Source: Arthrobacter sp. V1I7 (GTDB taxonomy: Bacteria > Actinomycetota > Actinomycetes > Actinomycetales > Micrococcaceae). From it: a DNA stretch of 64,000 nucleotides. Below, in pieces: positions 5,479 to 17,216 of the stretch. Below the pieces are notes generated by a model that was given only the letters and a program-made list of their open reading frames with translations, searched no databases and was not told where the DNA came from. The first letter of the stretch is position 1. Every line of letters begins with the position of its first letter. A program made the translations under genes and the position numbers. Location of the stretch: the NCBI RefSeq assembly GCF_030817015.1, contig NZ_JAUSYS010000001.1, positions 558,001 to 622,000 of the forward strand, written 5' to 3'.

Positions 5479-7086
5479 TTATTGCACGGTCACCATAACC
5501 GACTGCCAGCCGGAGGCACCGTCGGGAACTGGATCCGCACGCCTTTCCGTCTGCACTTCTCCGGTGCCGTCGGTGGCGCGGGCCTTGATGTAGTGCGGGC
5601 CGGGGGTCGCCTCCCAGTCGAAGGACCACTGCCGCCAGGTGATGAGGGAAGCCTCGGCGGAGAGCGTGGCCTCGGTCCAGGGGCCCTCGTCGATCTGCAC
5701 CTCGACCTTCGTGATGCCTCGTGTCTGGGCCCAGGCGGTGCCGCCGATCGCGACCCGCCCGGCCGGGACATGGGCGAAGGATTTGGGGACCTCAACGCGG
5801 GCCATGGTTTTGATCGGGCCGCGTTCGGACCAGCCGCGCTCGGTCCAGTACGCCTTGCTGTCGGCAAAGCGCGTGACCTCGAGGTCCACGACCCATTTCG
5901 TGGCCGAGACGAAGCCGTACAGCCCGGGAACCACCATGCGCACCGGGTAGCCGTGTTCGAGCGGGAGGGCCTCGCCGTTCATCCCGATGGCCAGCATGGC
6001 GTCGCGGTCGTCCTGCAGTACCTCCAGCGGGGTGGAGGCGCTGAAGCCGTCGATCGAGGTGGAGAGCACCATGTCCGCACCGTCCTTGGGCCGGGCCATC
6101 TTGAGCACATCACGGATGGGCAGGCCGAGCCATTTGGCGTTGCCGGCCAGGTTTCCGCCGACCGGATTGGAGACGCAGGTCAGGCTCACATGGGATTCGA
6201 TCAGCTCCGCGTCGAGCAGGTCCTGGAAGCTGAGCCGGACCTCCTGTTCCACGAGGCCGTGGACGCGCAGTTCCCACTCCCGAGCGTTGATTTCCGGCAC
6301 GCTCAGGGCGGTGTCAATGCGGTAGAAGTCCTTGTTGGGCGTCAGCCACGGCGTGACTCCCGGTGCCTTGGACTGCACCCCGGCGGGAACGGCCGGGGCG
6401 GCCTTGGCCGGCGCGGGCAGTTGGAGGGATTCGCGGGCTTGGGCCACGTTGCTGCGGGCCGCGCTGAGCAGCCGGCCGCCCGTCGCGGCGATGGCCGAGG
6501 CGGCTGCGGTGACGCCCGTTGCGGCGAAGAAGGCGCGCCGGCTGGCGGCGGGGCGTTCCGGTTCCTTGGCGGCGACGTCCGAGGCCATTTCCGGCCATTC
6601 CCGCATCCGCCACAGCCGGGTGACCAGGAGCCGGAGCACGATCAGCCCGGCGAGGGTGCCGATCAGCGAAGGAATCGCGTCCAGCGGCTTGACGCTGGCC
6701 CGGGTGACGACGCTGGCCACGATCACGGCGCCCATCAGCAGCACACCGGCCACGCCCAGGGCCCACTTGCGGTAGGCCACCACGCCCAGCACACAGGCAA
6801 GCAGCAGGATGGTCACGCCCATGCCGACGAAGAGTGCCGCCTTGTCGTTCGTGCCGAAGGTGGCGATCGCGAAGTCCTTCATCCATGGCGGAGTGAAATC
6901 GATGAAGGTCGAGCCTAGGGCGATCAGCGGCGTCGCCCGCGCCGTGAAGAAGGCGCCGATCAGTTCCGCCACGGACAGGACGACGGCGGCCGCGGCCACG
7001 CCGGCCAGCGCGGCCAGCGCGATGGGATTTCCGAGCCGTTTCCGGGGCTCCTGCCGGGCGTGGTTCTGCATGCTGGGCTTCTTCAT
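5479..7086 (-). CDS. Membrane-anchored molybdopterin-dependent oxidoreductase (sulfite oxidase family)
   Basis: 535 residues. The first about 190 carry four or five membrane helices (for example IALAALAGVAAAAVVLSVAELIG and ALFVGMGVTILLLACVLGVVAY). An SRRAFFAATGVTAAASAIA segment around the linker resembles a Tat-like motif. The rest is a sulfite-oxidase-type Moco domain with the Moco-binding Cys in SLTCVSNPVGG (about residue 303), the AMLAIGMNGEALPLEHGYPVRMVVPGLYG core split by loops, and a C-terminal Mo-co dimerisation domain. The active domain is probably outside the membrane. The substrate is unknown. I place the start at ATG 7086 (ATG 7071 is possible, with GAAGAAG upstream); the open frame further upstream only runs through repeat DNA. 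Confidence 0.88.
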   Translation of the reverse strand: MKKPSMQNHARQEPRKRLGNPIALAALAGVAAAAVVLSVAELIGAFFTARATPLIALGSTFIDFTPPWMKDFAIATFGTNDKAALFVGMGVTILLLACVLGVVAYRKWALGVAGVLLMGAVIVASVVTRASVKPLDAIPSLIGTLAGLIVLRLLVTRLWRMREWPEMASDVAAKEPERPAASRRAFFAATGVTAAASAIAATGGRLLSAARSNVAQARESLQLPAPAKAAPAVPAGVQSKAPGVTPWLTPNKDFYRIDTALSVPEINAREWELRVHGLVEQEVRLSFQDLLDAELIESHVSLTCVSNPVGGNLAGNAKWLGLPIRDVLKMARPKDGADMVLSTSIDGFSASTPLEVLQDDRDAMLAIGMNGEALPLEHGYPVRMVVPGLYGFVSATKWVVDLEVTRFADSKAYWTERGWSERGPIKTMARVEVPKSFAHVPAGRVAIGGTAWAQTRGITKVEVQIDEGPWTEATLSAEASLITWRQWSFDWEATPGPHYIKARATDGTGEVQTERRADPVPDGASGWQSVMVTVQ

Positions 7087-7132
7087 ACACTGTGTTCGTA
7101 GCCGCACGCTCTGCGGATTGTCCCGCCCCACA

Positions 7133-7692
7133 GGACATGCCCTCCGCTCGTGCCCAGCCACACTGCCGCGCCGAAGGGACATGCCCTCCGACCGCGCCCA
7201 GCGGTGGACATAATGCCATTGTGTCCATCGCTCGCGGCCAGGAGTGGGCATGTCCCGCGTTCGCAGGCCTGAGGACTGGACATGTCCCACGCTGCCCCGC
7301 CGCCCAGGACATGCCCTCCGCCCGGCCCCGCGGCCACGACTGGGCAAGTCCAGCTCGTGCCCGACTCCTCCCGCCTGTAGGACATACCCTCCGCCCCGCG
7401 CTGCCCCGCGCCACAGGACATGCTCTCCGCTCGCGCCCAGGACTGGGCAAGTCCAGCTCGTGCCCCCGACCCCTCCCGCCTGTAGGACATACCCTCCGCC
7501 CCGCGCTGCCCCGCGCCACAGGACATGCTCTCCGCTCGCGCCCGGGGATGGGCATGATGCCATTGTGTCCATTGTTCGCGGCCAGGACTGGGCATGTCCC
7601 GCGCTCGCAGGCCTGGGCATCGGGCATGTCCATCGCCCGCGGCCAGGATTGGGCATGTCCCGCAGTCAAGGACGTCACCACTGGGCATGTCC
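7133..7692. repeat. GGACAT/ATGTCC palindromic repeat array, locus 1
   Basis: Dense array of at least 15 short elements: GGACATGCCCTCCG, GGACATACCCTCCG, TGGGCAAGTCC, GGGCATGTCC, and two longer palindromes GGACAT-N9-GTGTCC (7206-7226) and GGGCAT-N9-GTGTCC (7550-7570). A unit of about 103 bp is duplicated in tandem (7338-7440 and 7441-7543), so the array grew partly by duplication. It fills the gap between the divergent molybdo-oxidoreductase and purD. Stop-free frames through it are an artefact of the base composition. The same elements recur near 15.9-16.3 kb and 21.3-21.4 kb. Confidence 0.85.
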
Positions 7693-7732
7693 AGCGGCGG
7701 ACACAGCTTAGGAACCAGCCGGGTCCACAAAG

Positions 7733-7738
7733 TACCCT
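7733..7738 (+). promoter_or_regulatory. -10-like hexamer of purD (leaderless)
   Basis: TACCCT ends 8 nt before the purD GTG and there is no Shine-Dalgarno. The identical hexamer stands 7 nt before the trhO GTG at 43714. No clear -35 is visible. Confidence 0.45.
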
Positions 7739-7746
7739 TGGGAACT

Positions 7747-9057
7747 GTGAAGGTACTCGTCATCGGCCCCGGCGGCCGCGAACACGCAATTGTCCGATCC
7801 CTGCTCGCAGACCCCAACGTTTCCGAAGTCCACGCGGCTCCGGGCAACGCCGGCATCAGTAAGCTGGTCCCCACGCATGCGATTGACGCGAACGACCCCG
7901 ACGCCGTGGCCGCCCTGGCCGCCAAGCTCACGGTGGACCTCGTGGTTGTCGGTCCCGAGGCGCCGCTCGCTGCGGGTGTCTCCGACACCGTCCGCGACGC
8001 CGGCATCCCGGTATTCGGTCCGAGCAAGGCCGCCGCCCAGCTGGAAGCCTCCAAGGCCTTCGCCAAGGAAGTCATGGCCGAGGCGGGCGTCCCCACCGCG
8101 ATGGCACGGGTGGCCGGCAACGCCGAGGAAGCCGCCGACGCGCTCGACACCTTCGGGGCTCCCTACGTGGTGAAGGACGACGGCCTCGCCGCCGGGAAGG
8201 GCGTCGTGGTCACCAACGACCGCGGTGAGGCCCTCGCCCATGCGCAGAGCTGCTTCGCTGCCGGCGGCACCGTCGTGATCGAGGAGTTCCTGGACGGCCC
8301 AGAGGTTTCGGTATTCGTCCTCTGCGACGGCAGCAACACCGTGGCGCTCTCCCCGGCCCAGGACTTCAAGCGCATCTTCGACAACGATGAAGGCCCCAAC
8401 ACCGGCGGCATGGGCGCCTACACGCCGCTGGAGTGGGCCCCCGAGGGCCTCGTCGACGAGGTCCTTGACCGCATCGCCCAGCCCACGGTCAATCAGATGG
8501 CGCACCGCGGCACGCCGTTCGTGGGGGTGCTGTTCGTCGGTCTGGCCCTCACCGCCCGGGGCACGCGGGTCATCGAGTACAACGTCCGTTTCGGCGACCC
8601 GGAGACCCAGGCTGTCCTGGCCCGGCTCAAGACTCCCCTCGGCGGCCTGCTGATGGCGGCCGCGAAGGGCGAACTGGACAAGGTCCAGCCGCTGCGCTGG
8701 TCCAAAGACTCAGCCGTCGCCGTCGTCGTCGCCGCGGAAAACTACCCCGGAGCCCCCCGCACGGGAGACCGGATCCGCGGGCTCAAGAAGGTTGAAGCCA
8801 TCGAGGGCGTCCATGTCATCCATGCCGGCACCAAGCTCGACGCCGAGGGCAAGGTGGTGTCCGCCGGCGGGCGCGTCCTCGCCGTGGTGGCGCTGGGGAC
8901 CGACCTCGTCGAGGCCCGGGAACGGGCGTACGACGGCGTCGAGCTGGTGCAGCTGGAGGGCGGCCAGTTCCGCACCGACATCGGCGGTAAGGCGGCCCGC
9001 GGCGAGATCAAGGTCACGTCGTCCGGCGCCCCGGCCACCACGAAAGCGAAGGCCTAA
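7747..9057 (+). CDS. purD: Phosphoribosylamine-glycine ligase
   Basis: 436 residues, the normal PurD length. It begins VKVLVIGPGGREHAIVRSL, the diagnostic N-terminus of GAR synthetase, followed by the ATP-grasp domain (PYVVKDDGLAAGKGVVV, GPEVSVFVLCDG, NTGGMGAYTP, GVLFVGL, EYNVRFGDPE). It catalyses ATP-dependent ligation of glycine to phosphoribosylamine, step 2 of de novo purine synthesis. GTG 7747 is the start; the frame is open further upstream only because it crosses the repeat array. purC follows after 2 nt, so the pair is an operon. Confidence 0.95.
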   Translation: MKVLVIGPGGREHAIVRSLLADPNVSEVHAAPGNAGISKLVPTHAIDANDPDAVAALAAKLTVDLVVVGPEAPLAAGVSDTVRDAGIPVFGPSKAAAQLEASKAFAKEVMAEAGVPTAMARVAGNAEEAADALDTFGAPYVVKDDGLAAGKGVVVTNDRGEALAHAQSCFAAGGTVVIEEFLDGPEVSVFVLCDGSNTVALSPAQDFKRIFDNDEGPNTGGMGAYTPLEWAPEGLVDEVLDRIAQPTVNQMAHRGTPFVGVLFVGLALTARGTRVIEYNVRFGDPETQAVLARLKTPLGGLLMAAAKGELDKVQPLRWSKDSAVAVVVAAENYPGAPRTGDRIRGLKKVEAIEGVHVIHAGTKLDAEGKVVSAGGRVLAVVALGTDLVEARERAYDGVELVQLEGGQFRTDIGGKAARGEIKVTSSGAPATTKAKA

Positions 9058-9059
9058 GC

Positions 9060-10016
9060 ATGACCGGCACCAATTCCTCCCTGCCCGGTGACGCACCGAA
9101 GGGCCTGGATACCGCCGCGCCGGACCTGCCGGGCTGGAAGCACGTCTACTCCGGCAAGGTCCGCGACCTGTACGTTCCGGTGGATGAGACCATCACCGAG
9201 CGAATGGGCCGCGAATGCGTCCTGGTGGTGGCGAGTGACCGGATTAGCGCCTTCGACCACGTCCTGGCCAGTGAAATCCCGGACAAGGGCCGTATCCTCA
9301 CCCAGCTCAGCCTGTGGTGGTTCGAGCAGCTGGGCGTGGAGCACCACGTGCTCGCGTCCACGGTCGACGGCGGCGTCCCCGCCGCCGTCGAGGGCCGCGC
9401 GATGATCTGCAAGAAGCTGGACATGTTCCCCGTCGAGTGCATCGCCCGCGGCTACCTCACCGGCTCCGGGCTCGCCGAATACCGGCAGACGCGCACCGTA
9501 TGCAGCATCCCGCTGCCTGAGGGCCTCGTGGATGGATCCCGGCTCGACCCGGCGATCTTCACCCCCTCCGCCAAGGCCGAGGTGGGCGAGCACGACGAGA
9601 ACATCACCTACGACGCTGTCGTCCAAATGGTCGGCGACGACATCGCGGCCCGGCTGAGCGAACTCACCCTGGAGATCTACACGAGGGCCGAGGCGATCGC
9701 CCGGGGCCGCGGCATCATCCTGGCGGACACCAAGGTGGAGTTCGGCTTCGACGCCGCCACCGGCGTCATCACCCTGGGCGATGAGGTGTTGACCCCGGAC
9801 TCCTCCCGGTTCTGGGACGCCGCCACCTATGAGCCCGGCAAGGCCCAGCCGTCCTACGACAAGCAGTACGTCCGCGACTGGCTGACCTCGGCCGAATCCG
9901 GCTGGGACAAGTCCTCCGACGTGCCCCCGCCTCCGCTGCCGGCCTACGTCGTCGCCCGGACCCGCAGCCGCTACGTCGAGGCCTACGAGAAGCTCACCGG
10001 CCGGCCGTTCAGTTAA
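9060..10016 (+). CDS. purC: Phosphoribosylaminoimidazole-succinocarboxamide synthase
   Basis: 318 residues with the SAICAR synthetase signatures YSGKVRDLY, ASDRISAFDHVL, ECIARGYLTGSG and ILADTKVEFGFD. It joins aspartate to CAIR using ATP in purine biosynthesis. This is the longer form (about 300 aa) found in actinobacteria and yeast rather than the 240-aa enterobacterial form. It begins 2 nt after purD. Its TAA (10014-10016) overlaps the TAA of the convergent XRE-TPR regulator (10013-10015) within one TTAA, so the two genes share their ends and no terminator fits between them. Confidence 0.95.
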   Translation: MTGTNSSLPGDAPKGLDTAAPDLPGWKHVYSGKVRDLYVPVDETITERMGRECVLVVASDRISAFDHVLASEIPDKGRILTQLSLWWFEQLGVEHHVLASTVDGGVPAAVEGRAMICKKLDMFPVECIARGYLTGSGLAEYRQTRTVCSIPLPEGLVDGSRLDPAIFTPSAKAEVGEHDENITYDAVVQMVGDDIAARLSELTLEIYTRAEAIARGRGIILADTKVEFGFDAATGVITLGDEVLTPDSSRFWDAATYEPGKAQPSYDKQYVRDWLTSAESGWDKSSDVPPPPLPAYVVARTRSRYVEAYEKLTGRPFS

Positions 10017-11293
10017 CTGTTCGCCGGGGTTTTCGTCGAGGCGGCCGCCTCGGCACGGCGCTTCGCCAGCCGGATCTCCAGCACCGCATCCAGTGCCTGC
10101 TGGACCCGGTCCGAGGCCCCCGCGGCGCTGAACTCCTTCTGCGCCTCACCGAGGTAGATGAGGGCCTCGTCGGATTCGCCGGCGGCCTTGAGCGCCTTGC
10201 CGAGCAGGAGAGCCACCTCGCCGGCGACGTGCCGGGCCAGCGCATCGCGTTCGGCGTGGATCTCCCGCAGCTTCTGGACTGCGGCGACGATGTCCCCGGT
10301 GAGGTAGAGCCAGCGGGCCCGGATGAAGGCCACTTCAAGCTCGTCGGTCCTGTTGCCGCCGACAATGGACAGCGCCAGCTCGGCGCGTTCGATCGAGGTC
10401 AGCGTCTCCGGCTCCACGATCCCCGAGGACAGCCTCACTGCGGCGGACGCCTTGTTGAAGCGAGCCCACAGGTCGATGTCGTTGGCGGGGGAGAGCATCT
10501 GCGCCGCGCGCTCATGGTACTTGATCCCCTCGGCGTAGTCGTGGCGCATGAAGGCGACGTTCCCGATCACCCAGGCGACTTCGCCGGCGAGCTGGGTCAT
10601 CGAATGATCATCCATCTGCGCGTTCATGTCCTGGCAGTACTGCCAGGCCTCGTCCAGCCGGCCGCTTTCGGCCAGCGCCCCAATCAGCGCCCGCAGCGCC
10701 CCGATGATGAGGGTGGATCCCTTGGGCAGGTCGGCGCAGAGCCGCACCGCTTCCTGGGCATGCGCGACGGCGACGGCCAGCTCCCCCTGCCCGTGGCATA
10801 CGGCCGCCAGCATCTGCCGGGCTCGGACGCCCAGCCCGGCCGATTCGGCCGCCATCGGGTGGTCCAGCAGCCGCTGCACGAGGTTCTGGCATTCCTTGAG
10901 CTCGCCCTGCTTCATGAGGCATTCAGCCTGCATGTAGGTCATGTTCCACCACGCGCTGGTGTTCTTGGCCTCGAGCGCGATCTGGGCCGCTGCCGCGGCG
11001 TGGGTGGCCGCCAGCGGGTAGTCTCTCAGGTCCCAGGCCTGCCGGGCGTACAGCACGGCGAGCACGTATTCGGCGTCACTGACGGAGACCGGCTGACTCC
11101 AAGCCTCCAGCGCCTTGGGGGCAAGTTCGAGGCGGCGGGCAAGCTCTTCGATGACATCAGCGGTCGGTTCGCGGCGTCCGGTTTCGAGCAGTGAGATGTA
11201 GCTGGGCGAGTACAGATCCCGGCCCAGTTCCGCCTGCGTGAGACCCCGTTCCAGCCGTTCCGCGCGGAGCTTCTCCCCAAATCCGTTCCCCAC
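10013..11293 (-). CDS. XRE-family regulator with C-terminal TPR-like domain (RRNPP-like architecture)
   Basis: 426 residues from a GTG with an excellent SD (AGGAGG, 5-nt spacer). Residues about 7-62 are an XRE helix-turn-helix (LRAERLERGLTQAELGRD, YISLLETGRREP). The remaining about 350 residues are helical and Ala/Leu-rich with repeated TPR-like pairs (for example ARQAWDLRDYPLAATHAAAA, ALAESGRLDEAWQYCQDM, AFMRHDYAEGIKYHERAA, GKALKAAGESDEALIYLGEA). HTH plus TPR is the layout of Rgg/PlcR/PrgX-type receptors that bind exported and re-imported peptides. It is divergent, across 128 bp, from a gene for an exported precursor with three identical octapeptides, the expected neighbour of such a receptor. 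Ligand and targets are unproven; other XRE-TPR proteins have no peptide ligand. Confidence 0.82.
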   Translation of the reverse strand: MGNGFGEKLRAERLERGLTQAELGRDLYSPSYISLLETGRREPTADVIEELARRLELAPKALEAWSQPVSVSDAEYVLAVLYARQAWDLRDYPLAATHAAAAAQIALEAKNTSAWWNMTYMQAECLMKQGELKECQNLVQRLLDHPMAAESAGLGVRARQMLAAVCHGQGELAVAVAHAQEAVRLCADLPKGSTLIIGALRALIGALAESGRLDEAWQYCQDMNAQMDDHSMTQLAGEVAWVIGNVAFMRHDYAEGIKYHERAAQMLSPANDIDLWARFNKASAAVRLSSGIVEPETLTSIERAELALSIVGGNRTDELEVAFIRARWLYLTGDIVAAVQKLREIHAERDALARHVAGEVALLLGKALKAAGESDEALIYLGEAQKEFSAAGASDRVQQALDAVLEIRLAKRRAEAAASTKTPANS

Positions 11294-11332
11294 GGATACC
11301 TCCTCATTCCGGACATTCTTTGTACTAAGTGC

Positions 11333-11363
11333 TTGACAGCCCCTGTGGAAATCATTTTACAAT
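11333..11363 (+). promoter_or_regulatory. Putative promoter and dyad upstream of the repeat-peptide gene
   Basis: TTGACA (11333-11338) is a perfect -35; TACAAT (11358-11363, 19-bp spacer) or TTTACA (11356-11361, 17-bp) can serve as -10. TGTCAA at 11367-11372 mirrors TTGACA across a 28-bp gap, so a dyad brackets the promoter. It lies in the 128-bp gap shared with the divergent regulator and would be a natural operator, but no operator is proven. Confidence 0.5.
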
Positions 11364-11421
11364 GTGTGTCAACAAGGTAGTGCTGACTTGGTGCAGACCC
11401 CGACTCTTATTGAGGATCTCT

Positions 11422-11613
11422 ATGTTGAAGAAGATTGCAGCCGGCGTCCTGCTGGCGGGTGCCCTCGCGTTTGCCGCCGCGGCCCCGGCGGCGCTGTCAG
11501 TAAGTGCTATCGGTAACTGGCCGGATCCCATGGGCCACACCTCGGCAATCGGCAACTGGCCGGATCCGATGACGTCCTCCCCGGACATCGGCAACTGGCC
11601 GGACCCCATGTAG
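11422..11613 (+). CDS. Exported peptide precursor with three IGNWPDPM repeats (candidate signal peptide)
   Basis: 63 residues. The start is ATG 11422, with GAGG 6 nt upstream. Residues 1-25 form a Sec signal (MLKK, then a long Ala/Leu/Val core). The remainder is almost only three copies of [A/D]IGNWPDPM at 29-37, 42-50 and 55-63: period 13, four-residue spacers (GHTS, TSSP), the last copy ending exactly at the C-terminus. A VSA motif at 27-29 could be the signal-peptidase site and would expose IGNWPDPM as mature N-terminus. The copies differ at synonymous positions (GCT/GCA, GGT/GGC, GAT/GAC, CCC/CCG), so the peptide rather than the DNA appears to be kept. It is divergent from an XRE-TPR regulator and followed by a strong terminator. 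Most likely a secreted signalling peptide precursor; a RiPP or other secreted peptide is possible, though no modification enzymes are adjacent. Confidence 0.75.
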   Translation: MLKKIAAGVLLAGALAFAAAAPAALSVSAIGNWPDPMGHTSAIGNWPDPMTSSPDIGNWPDPM

Positions 11614-11627
11614 GCAATACCCAGAGG

Positions 11628-11669
11628 AGCCCCGGGACATGCGCGAACCATGTCCCGGGGCTTCTTTTT
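11628..11669 (+). terminator. Rho-independent terminator of the repeat-peptide gene
   Basis: A perfect 14-bp stem (AGCCCCGGGACATG / CATGTCCCGGGGCT) with a 7-nt loop, followed by TCTTTTT, 14 nt after the stop codon. It is the strongest intrinsic terminator in the window and marks a short monocistronic transcript. The stem contains the GGGACATG motif found in the palindromic arrays. Confidence 0.9.
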
Positions 11670-11790
11670 GTGTGGAGCTTCACCTTGGGCCCCGCCCGGC
11701 GCCCGCGTTTGCCCCGCCCGGCGCGGCGCCCGCGTTCGCCCCGCTGTCCTGGCGGCGGCGCAACGGATTGCCGGTCACAAATCCGGACAT

Positions 11791-11831: not shown

Positions 11832-11908
11832 TGGTCGGGATGACAGGATTTGAACCTGCGACCTCGTCGTCCCGAACGACGCGCGCTACCAAGCTGCGCC
11901 ACATCCCG
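11832..11908 (-). tRNA. tRNA-Pro (anticodon CGG)
   Basis: 77 nt including an encoded CCA. The acceptor stem CGGGATG/CATCCCG (11902-11908 with 11836-11842) is perfect, with discriminator A. The anticodon stem CGTCG/CGACG encloses TTCGGGA, giving anticodon CGG for proline CCG codons. The T-arm GCAGGTTCAAATCCTGT is standard. A terminator follows directly. Confidence 0.97.
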
Positions 11909-15680: not shown

Positions 15681-15866
15681 GCCTGCTTCTTAAAACGCGC
15701 CTGCGAAGTATCTAACGCAACTGGAGGTAGTTTCCGGTAGCAACTACCCTAGGCCATCGGGTGACCGGGTTCACAGGAACCGGGTCACATCAGGATCTGG
15801 CCCAATCAGTACATGCCGCAATGCCCGGCCGGCGTCCGGGGTCCGGGGGCCGGGGGCGGGCGGCGG

Positions 15867-16270
15867 GGGACATGTCCAGTCCTGGCAGCGAGGGGTGGGT
15901 CCGGACCTCGCAATGCCGGGGGACATGTCCAGTCCTGGCCGCCAGGGATGGGCATAGGCCCGTTATGTCCAACCGTGGTCCCCGGGGGAGGGCATGTCCC
16001 GGGGCGGACGTGGTTCAGGGGTGGGCCCGGACCGCGCAACGCCGGGGGACATGTCCAGTCCTGGCCGCCAGGGATGGGCATAGGCCCGTTATGTCCAACC
16101 GTGGTCCCCGGGGGAGGGCATGTCCCCCCGGCGGGCGTGGTTCAGGGGTGGGCCCGGACCGCGCAATGCCGGGGGACATGTCCAGTCCTGGCCGCGAGGG
16201 ATGGGCATAGGCCCGTTATGTCCAACCGTGGTCCCCAGGGGAGGGCATGTCCCCCCGGCGGGCGTGGGTC
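15867..16270. repeat. GGACAT/ATGTCC palindromic repeat array, locus 2 (126-127 bp tandem units)
   Basis: Three near-identical tandem units (15891-16016, 16017-16143, 16144-16270), preceded by part of another unit (15867-15890). Each holds GGACATGTCC-AGTCCTGGC, then GGGCAT-N9-ATGTCC (15950-15970, 16076-16096, 16203-16223), then GGGCATGTCCC. The N9 core AGGCCCGTT is identical in all three. The array fills the gap between the ABC exporter start and the metallophosphoesterase stop codon, which lies in the last bases of the array. Confidence 0.9.
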
Positions 16271-17216
16271 AGGGCCGGGGCGTGAGGGTCAGGAGCACGG
16301 CCTCGGGCCGGCAGGCGATGCGGACCGGGGCGAAGCGCGAGGTGCCGATGCCGCCGGAGACGTTGACCGGCGTCGTGCGTCCGTTGCTTTGCCAGTCGTT
16401 CAGACCCTTGGCACGCCAGGTGGGGAGGTCGCAATTGGAGACCAGGGCGCCGTAGCCCGGGAGGCAGATCTGGCCGCCGTGGGTGTGTCCGGCGAACAGC
16501 AGGTCCGCCCCCTCCTCGGTGAAGTGATCCAGGACGCGCTGGTATGGGGCATGGGCGACGGCGATGCGCAGGTGCGCTGACGCGTTCTGGCCCTTGGTCC
16601 CGCGCGGCCAGCCCGCGTAGCGCTCGAGGCCCAGGTGGGGATCGTCCACGCCGGAAAAATCAAGGCGCAGTCCCTTGACCACGAGCGACTGGGACCGGTT
16701 GGTGAGGTCCACCCAGCCGCCCATCCCGAAACCGGAGCGCAGCCGCGGCCAGTCCAGGTCGACCGGGTTCTGGCGCTCCCCGGACGGACCGCGCAGGTAG
16801 GAGGCGGGGTTCTTGAGCTGCGGGCCGAAGTAGTCGTTGGAACCGGGCACAAAGACGCCCGGGAACTCCATCAGGGGCTGCAACGCCTCGAGCAGGGGTT
16901 TCACCGCGTTGACGTGACTGAGGTTGTCACCGGTGTTTACGACCAGATCGGGCGACAGGTCCGCCAGCGAGGCAAGCCACCCGGCCTTCCGGCGCTGGCC
17001 GGGCACGAAGTGGATGTCGCTGAGATGCAGCACGCGGATCGGCCCGTGGCCCGGCGGCAGAAGGGCCAGTGACTCCTCCCGCAGGACGAACTGGTTCTTC
17101 TCCCACAGTCCGTAGCCGGCGGCGGCGGCCCCGGTCGCTGCGCCAAAAGCCGCCGTTACGGCAAGGCCGCGCCCGAAGCCCCGGACGCGGCCCGCCAGCG
17201 TGGTTCCCCCGGCCAC
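16269..17216 (-). CDS. Metallophosphoesterase (YkuE/calcineurin-like)
   Basis: 315 residues. A hydrophobic N-terminal segment (LAVTAAFGAATGAAAAGYGLW) likely anchors it in the membrane. The two-metal phosphoesterase motifs follow in order: SDIHF (D-x-H), GDNL, GSNDYF (normally GNHD) and FAGHTHGGQICLP. YkuE-type relatives are exported and linked to envelope metabolism. It starts 3 nt after the class A PBP stop codon, so it is the second gene of a PBP operon, supporting an envelope role. The substrate is unknown. The GNHD motif is altered to GSND, which may affect the metal site. Confidence 0.88.
   Translation of the reverse strand: MAGGTTLAGRVRGFGRGLAVTAAFGAATGAAAAGYGLWEKNQFVLREESLALLPPGHGPIRVLHLSDIHFVPGQRRKAGWLASLADLSPDLVVNTGDNLSHVNAVKPLLEALQPLMEFPGVFVPGSNDYFGPQLKNPASYLRGPSGERQNPVDLDWPRLRSGFGMGGWVDLTNRSQSLVVKGLRLDFSGVDDPHLGLERYAGWPRGTKGQNASAHLRIAVAHAPYQRVLDHFTEEGADLLFAGHTHGGQICLPGYGALVSNCDLPTWRAKGLNDWQSNGRTTPVNVSGGIGTSRFAPVRIACRPEAVLLTLTPRP

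Follow-up and report, generated by a model that had tools for sequence, protein, structure and literature searches.

A divergent XRE-TPR regulator and an exported octapeptide precursor of Arthrobacter as a likely peptide signalling pair, with leaderless copies in hosts and phages

PlcR-PapR of Bacillota resembles the locus described here in that a helix-turn-helix (HTH) domain is followed by tetratricopeptide repeats (TPR) and the receptor gene adjoins a gene for a small exported precursor. ComR-ComS and Rgg-SHP likewise combine an XRE-TPR regulator with a short pheromone, and in the arbitrium system (AimR-AimP) an exported peptide is read by a phage-encoded receptor. Paratox is described as a phage protein that binds ComR and acts as inhibitor, and passages of PMC11343458 describe Rap-Phr systems of the phages Phi3T and phi105 in which the phage carries receptor and precursor, with repeated pheromones. 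Signals of actinobacteria are, according to passages of a 2023 survey, typically small molecules made by enzymes, oligopeptides being the way of Bacillota (PMC10075063); in passages of PMC9765709 actinobacteria go unmentioned, and passages of PMC4748050 give for Arthrobacter only LuxR-type and similar domains. In the literature searched (without bioRxiv and most subscription journals) we found no peptide-receptor (RRNPP) system for Micrococcaceae or actinobacteria, no phage pheromone mimics or Arthrobacter phage minigenes of the kind reported below, and no occurrence of NWPDPM, which agrees with an earlier note on this DNA, whose author knew of no described system with this peptide. Here, we describe a regulator gene and a divergent precursor gene in a stretch of 64,000 nucleotides of Arthrobacter sp. 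V1I7 (contig NZ_JAUSYS010000001.1, positions 558,001 to 622,000; hereafter the window). The precursor contains three copies of the octapeptide IGNWPDPM, and the pair is probably a peptide quorum-sensing system, one that functions in the manner of RRNPPA signalling in Bacillota. The sequence comparisons on which this rests support it well, and the pair would be a variant of RRNPPA-type signalling new to the literature searched. Unlike PlcR-PapR it is found in Actinomycetota and usually has several octapeptide copies with a Trp-Pro (W-P) core; from ComR-ComS and Rgg-SHP it differs in its peptides.

The features of the locus, in window positions, are:
10013..11293, minus strand: XRE-TPR regulator, putative octapeptide receptor, 426 aa, GTG start at 11293, stop at 10013
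11102..11281, minus strand: HTH domain, residues 5-64 (Pfam HTH_31, HTH_3)
10034..11083, minus strand: TPR superhelix, about residues 71-420 (Pfam; helical in the AlphaFold2 model)
11330..11375, no strand: conserved block of 46 bp at fixed spacing in 50/50 genus loci, candidate operator over the peptide promoter
11412..11416, plus strand: Shine-Dalgarno sequence GAGGA of the peptide gene (by eye)
11422..11613, plus strand: precursor gene, 63 aa, ATG at 11422, stop at 11613
11422..11508, plus strand: Sec signal and residues up to copy 1, residues 1-29 (by eye)
11509..11532, plus strand: IGNWPDPM copy 1 (sequence)
11548..11571, plus strand: IGNWPDPM copy 2 (sequence)
11587..11610, plus strand: IGNWPDPM copy 3, C-terminus (sequence)
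11623..11669, plus strand: intrinsic terminator hairpin and T run (-36.2 kcal/mol, z -6.4), absent from the scan output
9060-10016, strand not stated: flanking gene resembling purC (by eye)
11832-11908, strand not stated: flanking tRNA-Pro gene (sequence)

The two genes diverge across a gap of 128 bp. The precursor reads MLKKIAAGVLLAGALAFAAAAPAALSVSA-IGNWPDPM-GHTSA-IGNWPDPM-TSSPD-IGNWPDPM-stop, so that the copies recur every 39 nt or 13 aa, and they differ in synonymous codons (ATC GGT AAC TGG CCG GAT CCC ATG, then GGC and CCG, then GGC and GAC CCC). The earlier note had described just such a precursor, and coordinates and codons agree with it; its Sec signal was called by eye, and the signals of relatives by a simple rule in place of a predictor. 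The DNA pattern for GNWPDPM occurs three times in the window, compared with none in 100 shuffles, and nowhere outside the locus in the 5.03-Mb genome, which thus has no leaderless copy. The precursor had no match among the plasmids searched, and the NCBIfam model of DWW-type pheromones overlaps it at the signal sequence only (E 0.13).

The pair is widespread in the genus. At E 1e-20 the regulator is matched in 197 of 198 genomes, and the exact GNWPDPM pattern is present in 160 of them, a backward control pattern in none. Fifty loci were compared: our own, the 29 next best-scoring ones and 20 that were chosen, 12 of these from the 38 genomes without the pattern. In all 50 a divergent precursor with a signal-like sequence adjoins the regulator, as the earlier note had supposed for orthologous regulators. 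The core is [IV]GNWPDPM in 38 loci and IGNWPDPA in 12, a single clade; these 12 are the loci from the pattern-less genomes (12 of the 38 examined), and both copies are changed in each of their precursors. One core copy is found in 4 loci, two in 14, three in 20 and four in 12, and the core forms the C-terminal end of the precursor in 47/50. A protein database gave 402 precursor relatives at E 1, and the best 120 of the 402 together with our own (121 precursors) contain 378 exact GNWPDPM heptads, with Ile or Val before the heptad in every instance but one, compared with 150 different linkers among 257. The repeats are therefore conserved at the protein level, again as supposed, and since the octapeptide is constant and the linkers are variable, selection apparently keeps the octapeptide and not the surrounding protein. 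A signal sequence followed by a conserved C-terminus with W-P would also suit a secretion-monitoring arrest peptide of the SecM/ApdA type, with WPDP stalling the ribosome. With the strong terminator hairpin behind it, however, the precursor would have no downstream gene to control; 46/50 genus precursors have two or more copies, and no link to the receptor sequence would be predicted. We regard this explanation as most improbable.

The regulator has HTH_31/HTH_3 and TPR_12 domains above the Pfam cut-offs, which agrees with the HTH-TPR protein proposed in the earlier note, and the AlphaFold2 model (pLDDT, the per-residue confidence, 90.3; pTM, the predicted template modelling score, 0.78) is helical throughout. 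The likeness to RRNPP receptors, also proposed there, is borne out by a profile of 44 receptors, which matches PlcR (2qfc) over HTH and TPR in one stretch (profile 4-217, E 2.4e-11); HTH fragments of ComR match as well (E 2.6e-4), and the predicted model aligns with Rap, NprR and AimR. At least 90% of the 44 receptors have Trp115, Trp116, Trp241, Asn245, Trp276, Asn280 and Arg287, and the Trp and Pro of the peptides are likewise kept. In RRNPPA receptors, conserved Asn residues contact the peptide backbone. PADLOC and most PHROGs matches cover only the HTH of the regulator, apart from a single weak PADLOC match (E 0.015) to residues 135-264.

Judged from the aligned sequences, changes in the receptor go with changes in the core. 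In the receptor tree, the GNWPDPA receptors lie together on one side of a fully supported branch, and 18 positions separate these 12 from the 38 GNWPDPM receptors. Nine of the 18 fall within residues 186-227, a clustering with a binomial probability of 1.9e-5 when relatedness is ignored. Ala occupies position 202 in the 38 and likewise in six GNWPDPM receptors from a different genus (75-76% identity), whereas the receptors for GNWPDPA (12) and GNWPDPF (2) have Ile there; residue 308 is Leu with GNWPDPM, Phe with GNWPDPA and His with GNWPDPF. Ala-202 also occurs with some other cores and is therefore no code by itself. The co-variation of peptide and receptor that the earlier note had proposed looking for is thus found at residues 202 and 308 and in the cluster.

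Between the two genes lies a block of 46 bp, TGCTTGACAG...CTGT..AA...ATTTTACAATG..TGTCAACAA, whose length is fixed in 50/50 genus loci (19 of them aligned). The lowest score of a genus locus is 76, compared with a highest score of -33 in three shuffles of 730 kb. By eye, it comprises two TTnACA-N5-TGT dyads at a distance of 23 bp, which cover the probable peptide promoter, and we propose from its sequence that it may be an operator over this promoter. Related genera have weaker versions at their receptor loci (L077, L079, L080, L306). A scan of the collected loci found no further place above threshold, and the block therefore yields no regulon. The note's claim that the peptide gene has signals of its own stands in part: TTGACA is present at 11333-11338 and GAGGA by eye, the second promoter hexamer would be TTTACA or TACAAT, and a consensus scan of 11250-11750 reported neither a sigma-70 promoter nor a terminator. 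We accept the terminator nevertheless because of the folding energy and z-score of its hairpin.

Relatives of the receptor extend beyond the genus. In Micrococcaceae they are present in 63 of 149 genomes and 17 of 32 genera (E 1e-30), in the order in 26/396 genomes (E 1e-15) and in the class, by a profile of HTH-less receptors, in 10/394 (E 1e-12); the matches in four of these 394 genomes that lie outside the order (E 1e-17 to 4e-14) are without a clear W-P peptide. Sixty family and order loci were collected, 41 of which have a receptor with an HTH domain. Of these 41, 22 have a divergent exported W-P peptide and five a divergent leaderless one. The cores include GNWPDPF, GIWPNS, VGNWPDA, ATGNWPN, VWIWPD, VGEWPH and VGDWPH, and VGGSWPT in Arsenicicoccus, whose receptor retrieved six relatives in a protein search. 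The leaderless peptides (L102, L103, L106, L107, L110) are short and have W-P ends such as VGDWPD and GIGDWPHAA; short leaderless precursors (L106, L107, L110) are a further likeness to ComR-ComS and Rgg-SHP. L332, a distant relative of the receptor from a further family within the class, lies near an exported-looking open reading frame (ORF) with two DIGWP repeats and is possibly an outlying member of the family.

A second class of receptors, not foreseen in the earlier note, has about 340 aa, matches the regulator from about residue 70 onward and thus lacks the HTH domain; only TPR domains were found by Pfam in one of them (L126). An exported W-P peptide lies beside 21/21 of these receptors (L130 weak), including the one in our own genome, whose peptide contains GPGWWPDAKP twice; other ends include GWWPN, GWWPH, VGSWPF, NNWPY and GGLWPY. 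In 80 further loci, one of which is of the HTH class (L306) and some of which repeat genomes of the earlier set, 78 passed the filter and a divergent exported W-P peptide is present in 77 (L284 is spurious). As a control, the filter was applied to 437 further ORF starts from these loci; 20 passed, and six of the 20 end in something like a core. Of these six, L255, L297 and L304 are truncated loci in which the mask had missed the receptor's own peptide, L288 is another peptide of W-P type, and L289 and L300 are unrelated. One locus, L299 (WNZI01000017.1), is labelled Vibrio cholerae strain 35D and has an Arthrobacter-type receptor and peptide (VGNWPY); this is probably a mislabelled or contaminated assembly.

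The HTH-less receptors keep characteristic company. On the same strand, 73/80 loci encode a GGDEF-EAL homologue, at a distance of up to 2 kb in 72 and of up to 1 kb in 71. The HTH-less locus of our own genome also has one (55% identity); none was found in 40 HTH-class loci, whose flanks extended over about 2 kb. The gene is found upstream of the receptor in 37 loci and downstream of it in 36 and is therefore not always in one operon with the receptor. A histidine kinase homologue is present in 30/80 loci of this set (class loci are L002, L117, L126 and L236-L315). The gene neighbourhood suggests that peptide sensing in this class is linked to cyclic-di-GMP.

Several observations weigh against the assignment of the regulator to RRNPPA-like signalling. 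In the profile search 15 repeat proteins outscore PlcR, although without a passing stretch, a search with the HTH-less profile gave no RRNPPA member, and other TPR proteins also align with the regulator model. In addition, no W-P peptide was found at 14/41 HTH-class loci, whose receptors have 35-60% identity.

The GNWPDPM search of the genus also gave genes away from the receptor, another finding beyond the earlier note. Twenty such places were examined (L055-L074), and in all of them the heptad is carried by an ORF without recognisable signal peptide. In the five places where the preceding gene was examined (L055, L061, L065, L071, L073), it encodes an exported proline-rich protein that ends in DPGSSPD or DPGCSPD. 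Some of the ORFs mix cores; L061, for example, has three copies of IGNWPDPM and two of IGWWPNTM. Eight genomes have a leaderless ORF with a GWWP[N/D/H] core, and in each of them WWP is followed by the same residue as in the second pheromone of that genome. This residue is N in four genomes (G115, G101, G148, G158), D in three (G020, G063, G082) and H in one (G105). According to the tree, D has one origin and H at least one more, and these are therefore about two independent matches rather than eight. G066 and G097 do not fit; their leaderless ORFs have IGFWPD/IGYWPD beside GNWPDPM, and their second pheromone is IGWWPN. Further leaderless ORFs with GNWPDPM are L191, L194, L195, L198-L203, L206-L210, L215, L217, L223, L355 and L356; some leaderless ORFs end exactly in IGNWPDPM, and the DPGSSPD C-terminus is conserved in the exported protein that precedes some of them.

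Leaderless copies are also present in phages, which the earlier note had not anticipated (L316-L319, L322-L324, L340-L345, L354). The GNWPDPM pattern occurs in ten IMG/VR contigs, in eight with a stop immediately after the core, and seven have a tiny ORF with a Shine-Dalgarno sequence by eye, in four distinct sequences. MRIGNWPDPM is encoded in L316 = L317, L319 = L323 and L322, and MMSTIGNWPDPM in L318 = L324; L320 and L321 look like chance matches, and L325 has a longer ORF of membrane type. In L316, L318, L319 and L322 the neighbours of the minigene include terminase, exonuclease and other phage families. Among the isolated relatives listed for parts of L318 and L322, Arthrobacter phages come first; most records that match these contigs are from other hosts (Arthrobacter 22/240 and 31/263). 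Some neighbouring genes are common to the contigs, which were therefore counted as one group.

Isolated Arthrobacter phages carry the minigene in two other forms. In the jumbo phages Talia1610, Mimi and Racecar AAGGAG is followed by MKRIGNWPDPM (GTG AAG CGA/AGA ATC GGT AAC TGG CCC GAC CC(T/C) ATG TAA), which overlaps the end of an annotated hypothetical gene. In RedFox, PhluffyCoco, KHumphrey and Juno112 GAGGAGG is followed by MRRIGNWPDPM (ATG CGG CGC ATC GGC AAT TGG CCT GAT CCC ATG TGA), directly after the gene for the single-stranded DNA-binding protein and unannotated in the three records whose flanks were examined. A terminator-like hairpin follows the minigene in both groups by eye. There are thus at least three phage groups, which differ in codons, and the seven isolated phages are a lower bound because blastn needs near-exact codons. 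Arthrobacter globiformis NBRC 12137, which we take to be the same strain as the phage host NRRL B-2979, has a host precursor with three IGNWPDPM copies (L160). Two other cores were looked for in phages. IGWWP[ND] followed by a T-purine-purine codon was found in seven contigs (four with a true stop) and GNWPDPA in one without stop, in none with an evident start and Shine-Dalgarno sequence; phage mimicry is therefore seen for GNWPDPM only. None of the phage copies has a signal peptide. Rap-Phr phages carry a whole system, whereas the phages described here have the host peptide alone, in a bare copy without leader, and unlike AimR, no phage relative of the present receptor was confirmed among 33 IMG/VR stretches that matched receptor patterns. 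Paratox is alike in that a phage product acts on a host quorum receptor; it is, however, a protein that inhibits, whereas the phages described here would act through a copy of the ligand itself.

These leaderless forms bear on what the peptide reports. The core could be mainly an intracellular ligand that reads gene expression and not density, the exported form being minor or of different use. The chromosomal ORFs L055-L074, the leaderless divergent peptides beside five receptors and the phage minigenes are all in line with this idea, and the signal-like sequence in the receptor-adjacent gene of 50/50 genus and 77/80 HTH-less loci speaks against it. We judge it unlikely, less so than the other alternatives. 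Alternatively, the repeats could be the cores of a secreted antimicrobial peptide or of a ribosomally synthesized and post-translationally modified peptide (RiPP), with the XRE-TPR protein as a mere regulator. Precursors with several cores and a conserved leader are known among RiPPs; alongside our precursor no modification or immunity gene is evident, the neighbours being the purC-like gene (by eye, without family search) and tRNA-Pro, and the co-change with the receptor, the phage copies of the bare octapeptide and the leaderless ORFs would be left unexplained. We regard this alternative as very unlikely. Elsewhere in the window, at 5479-8150 and 15761-16580, overlapping repetitive ORFs with words of the type GHVP/ACPV are present on both strands; they are probably repeat DNA and not genes.

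Returning to peptide quorum sensing as the preferred explanation, the precursor would be exported and cut to the octapeptide [IV]GNWPDPM or a slightly shorter form, and the trimmed peptide would be re-imported and bound in the TPR groove of the regulator, which would then change its hold on the intergenic operator block and on other genes. We infer this course, the steps from export to binding by homology; the peptide may activate or inhibit the regulator. The peptide would act in the cytoplasm, and leaderless ORFs and minigenes could carry the core without a signal peptide because it acts inside the cell; they would set the receptor at any cell density. The leaderless copies support a site of action in the cytoplasm, where phages may set the receptor from within. 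It is tempting to speculate that a phage would benefit by shutting off density-linked defence or by changing host physiology for replication.

Taken together, we favour, with less assurance than for the pair itself, the view that actinobacteria have a large family of G-x-W-P-x pheromones of their own. Of its two receptor classes, one would act on DNA; the other, the HTH-less class, would be connected with cyclic-di-GMP enzymes and suggests that peptides feed into cyclic-di-GMP signalling. Leaderless host polypeptides would join the cores of the host's two pheromones, and phages of at least three groups would have acquired bare, leaderless copies with which they set the host receptor from within during infection. 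Such copying is perhaps quorum hijacking of a new kind, and it provides a natural experiment on what a virus gains by setting a receptor of this type. If the signalling function is true, a peptide that is nearly invariant across the genus would open signalling of soil actinobacteria to simple tests, since the octapeptide can be purchased and the parts are found in named environmental strains and isolated phages.

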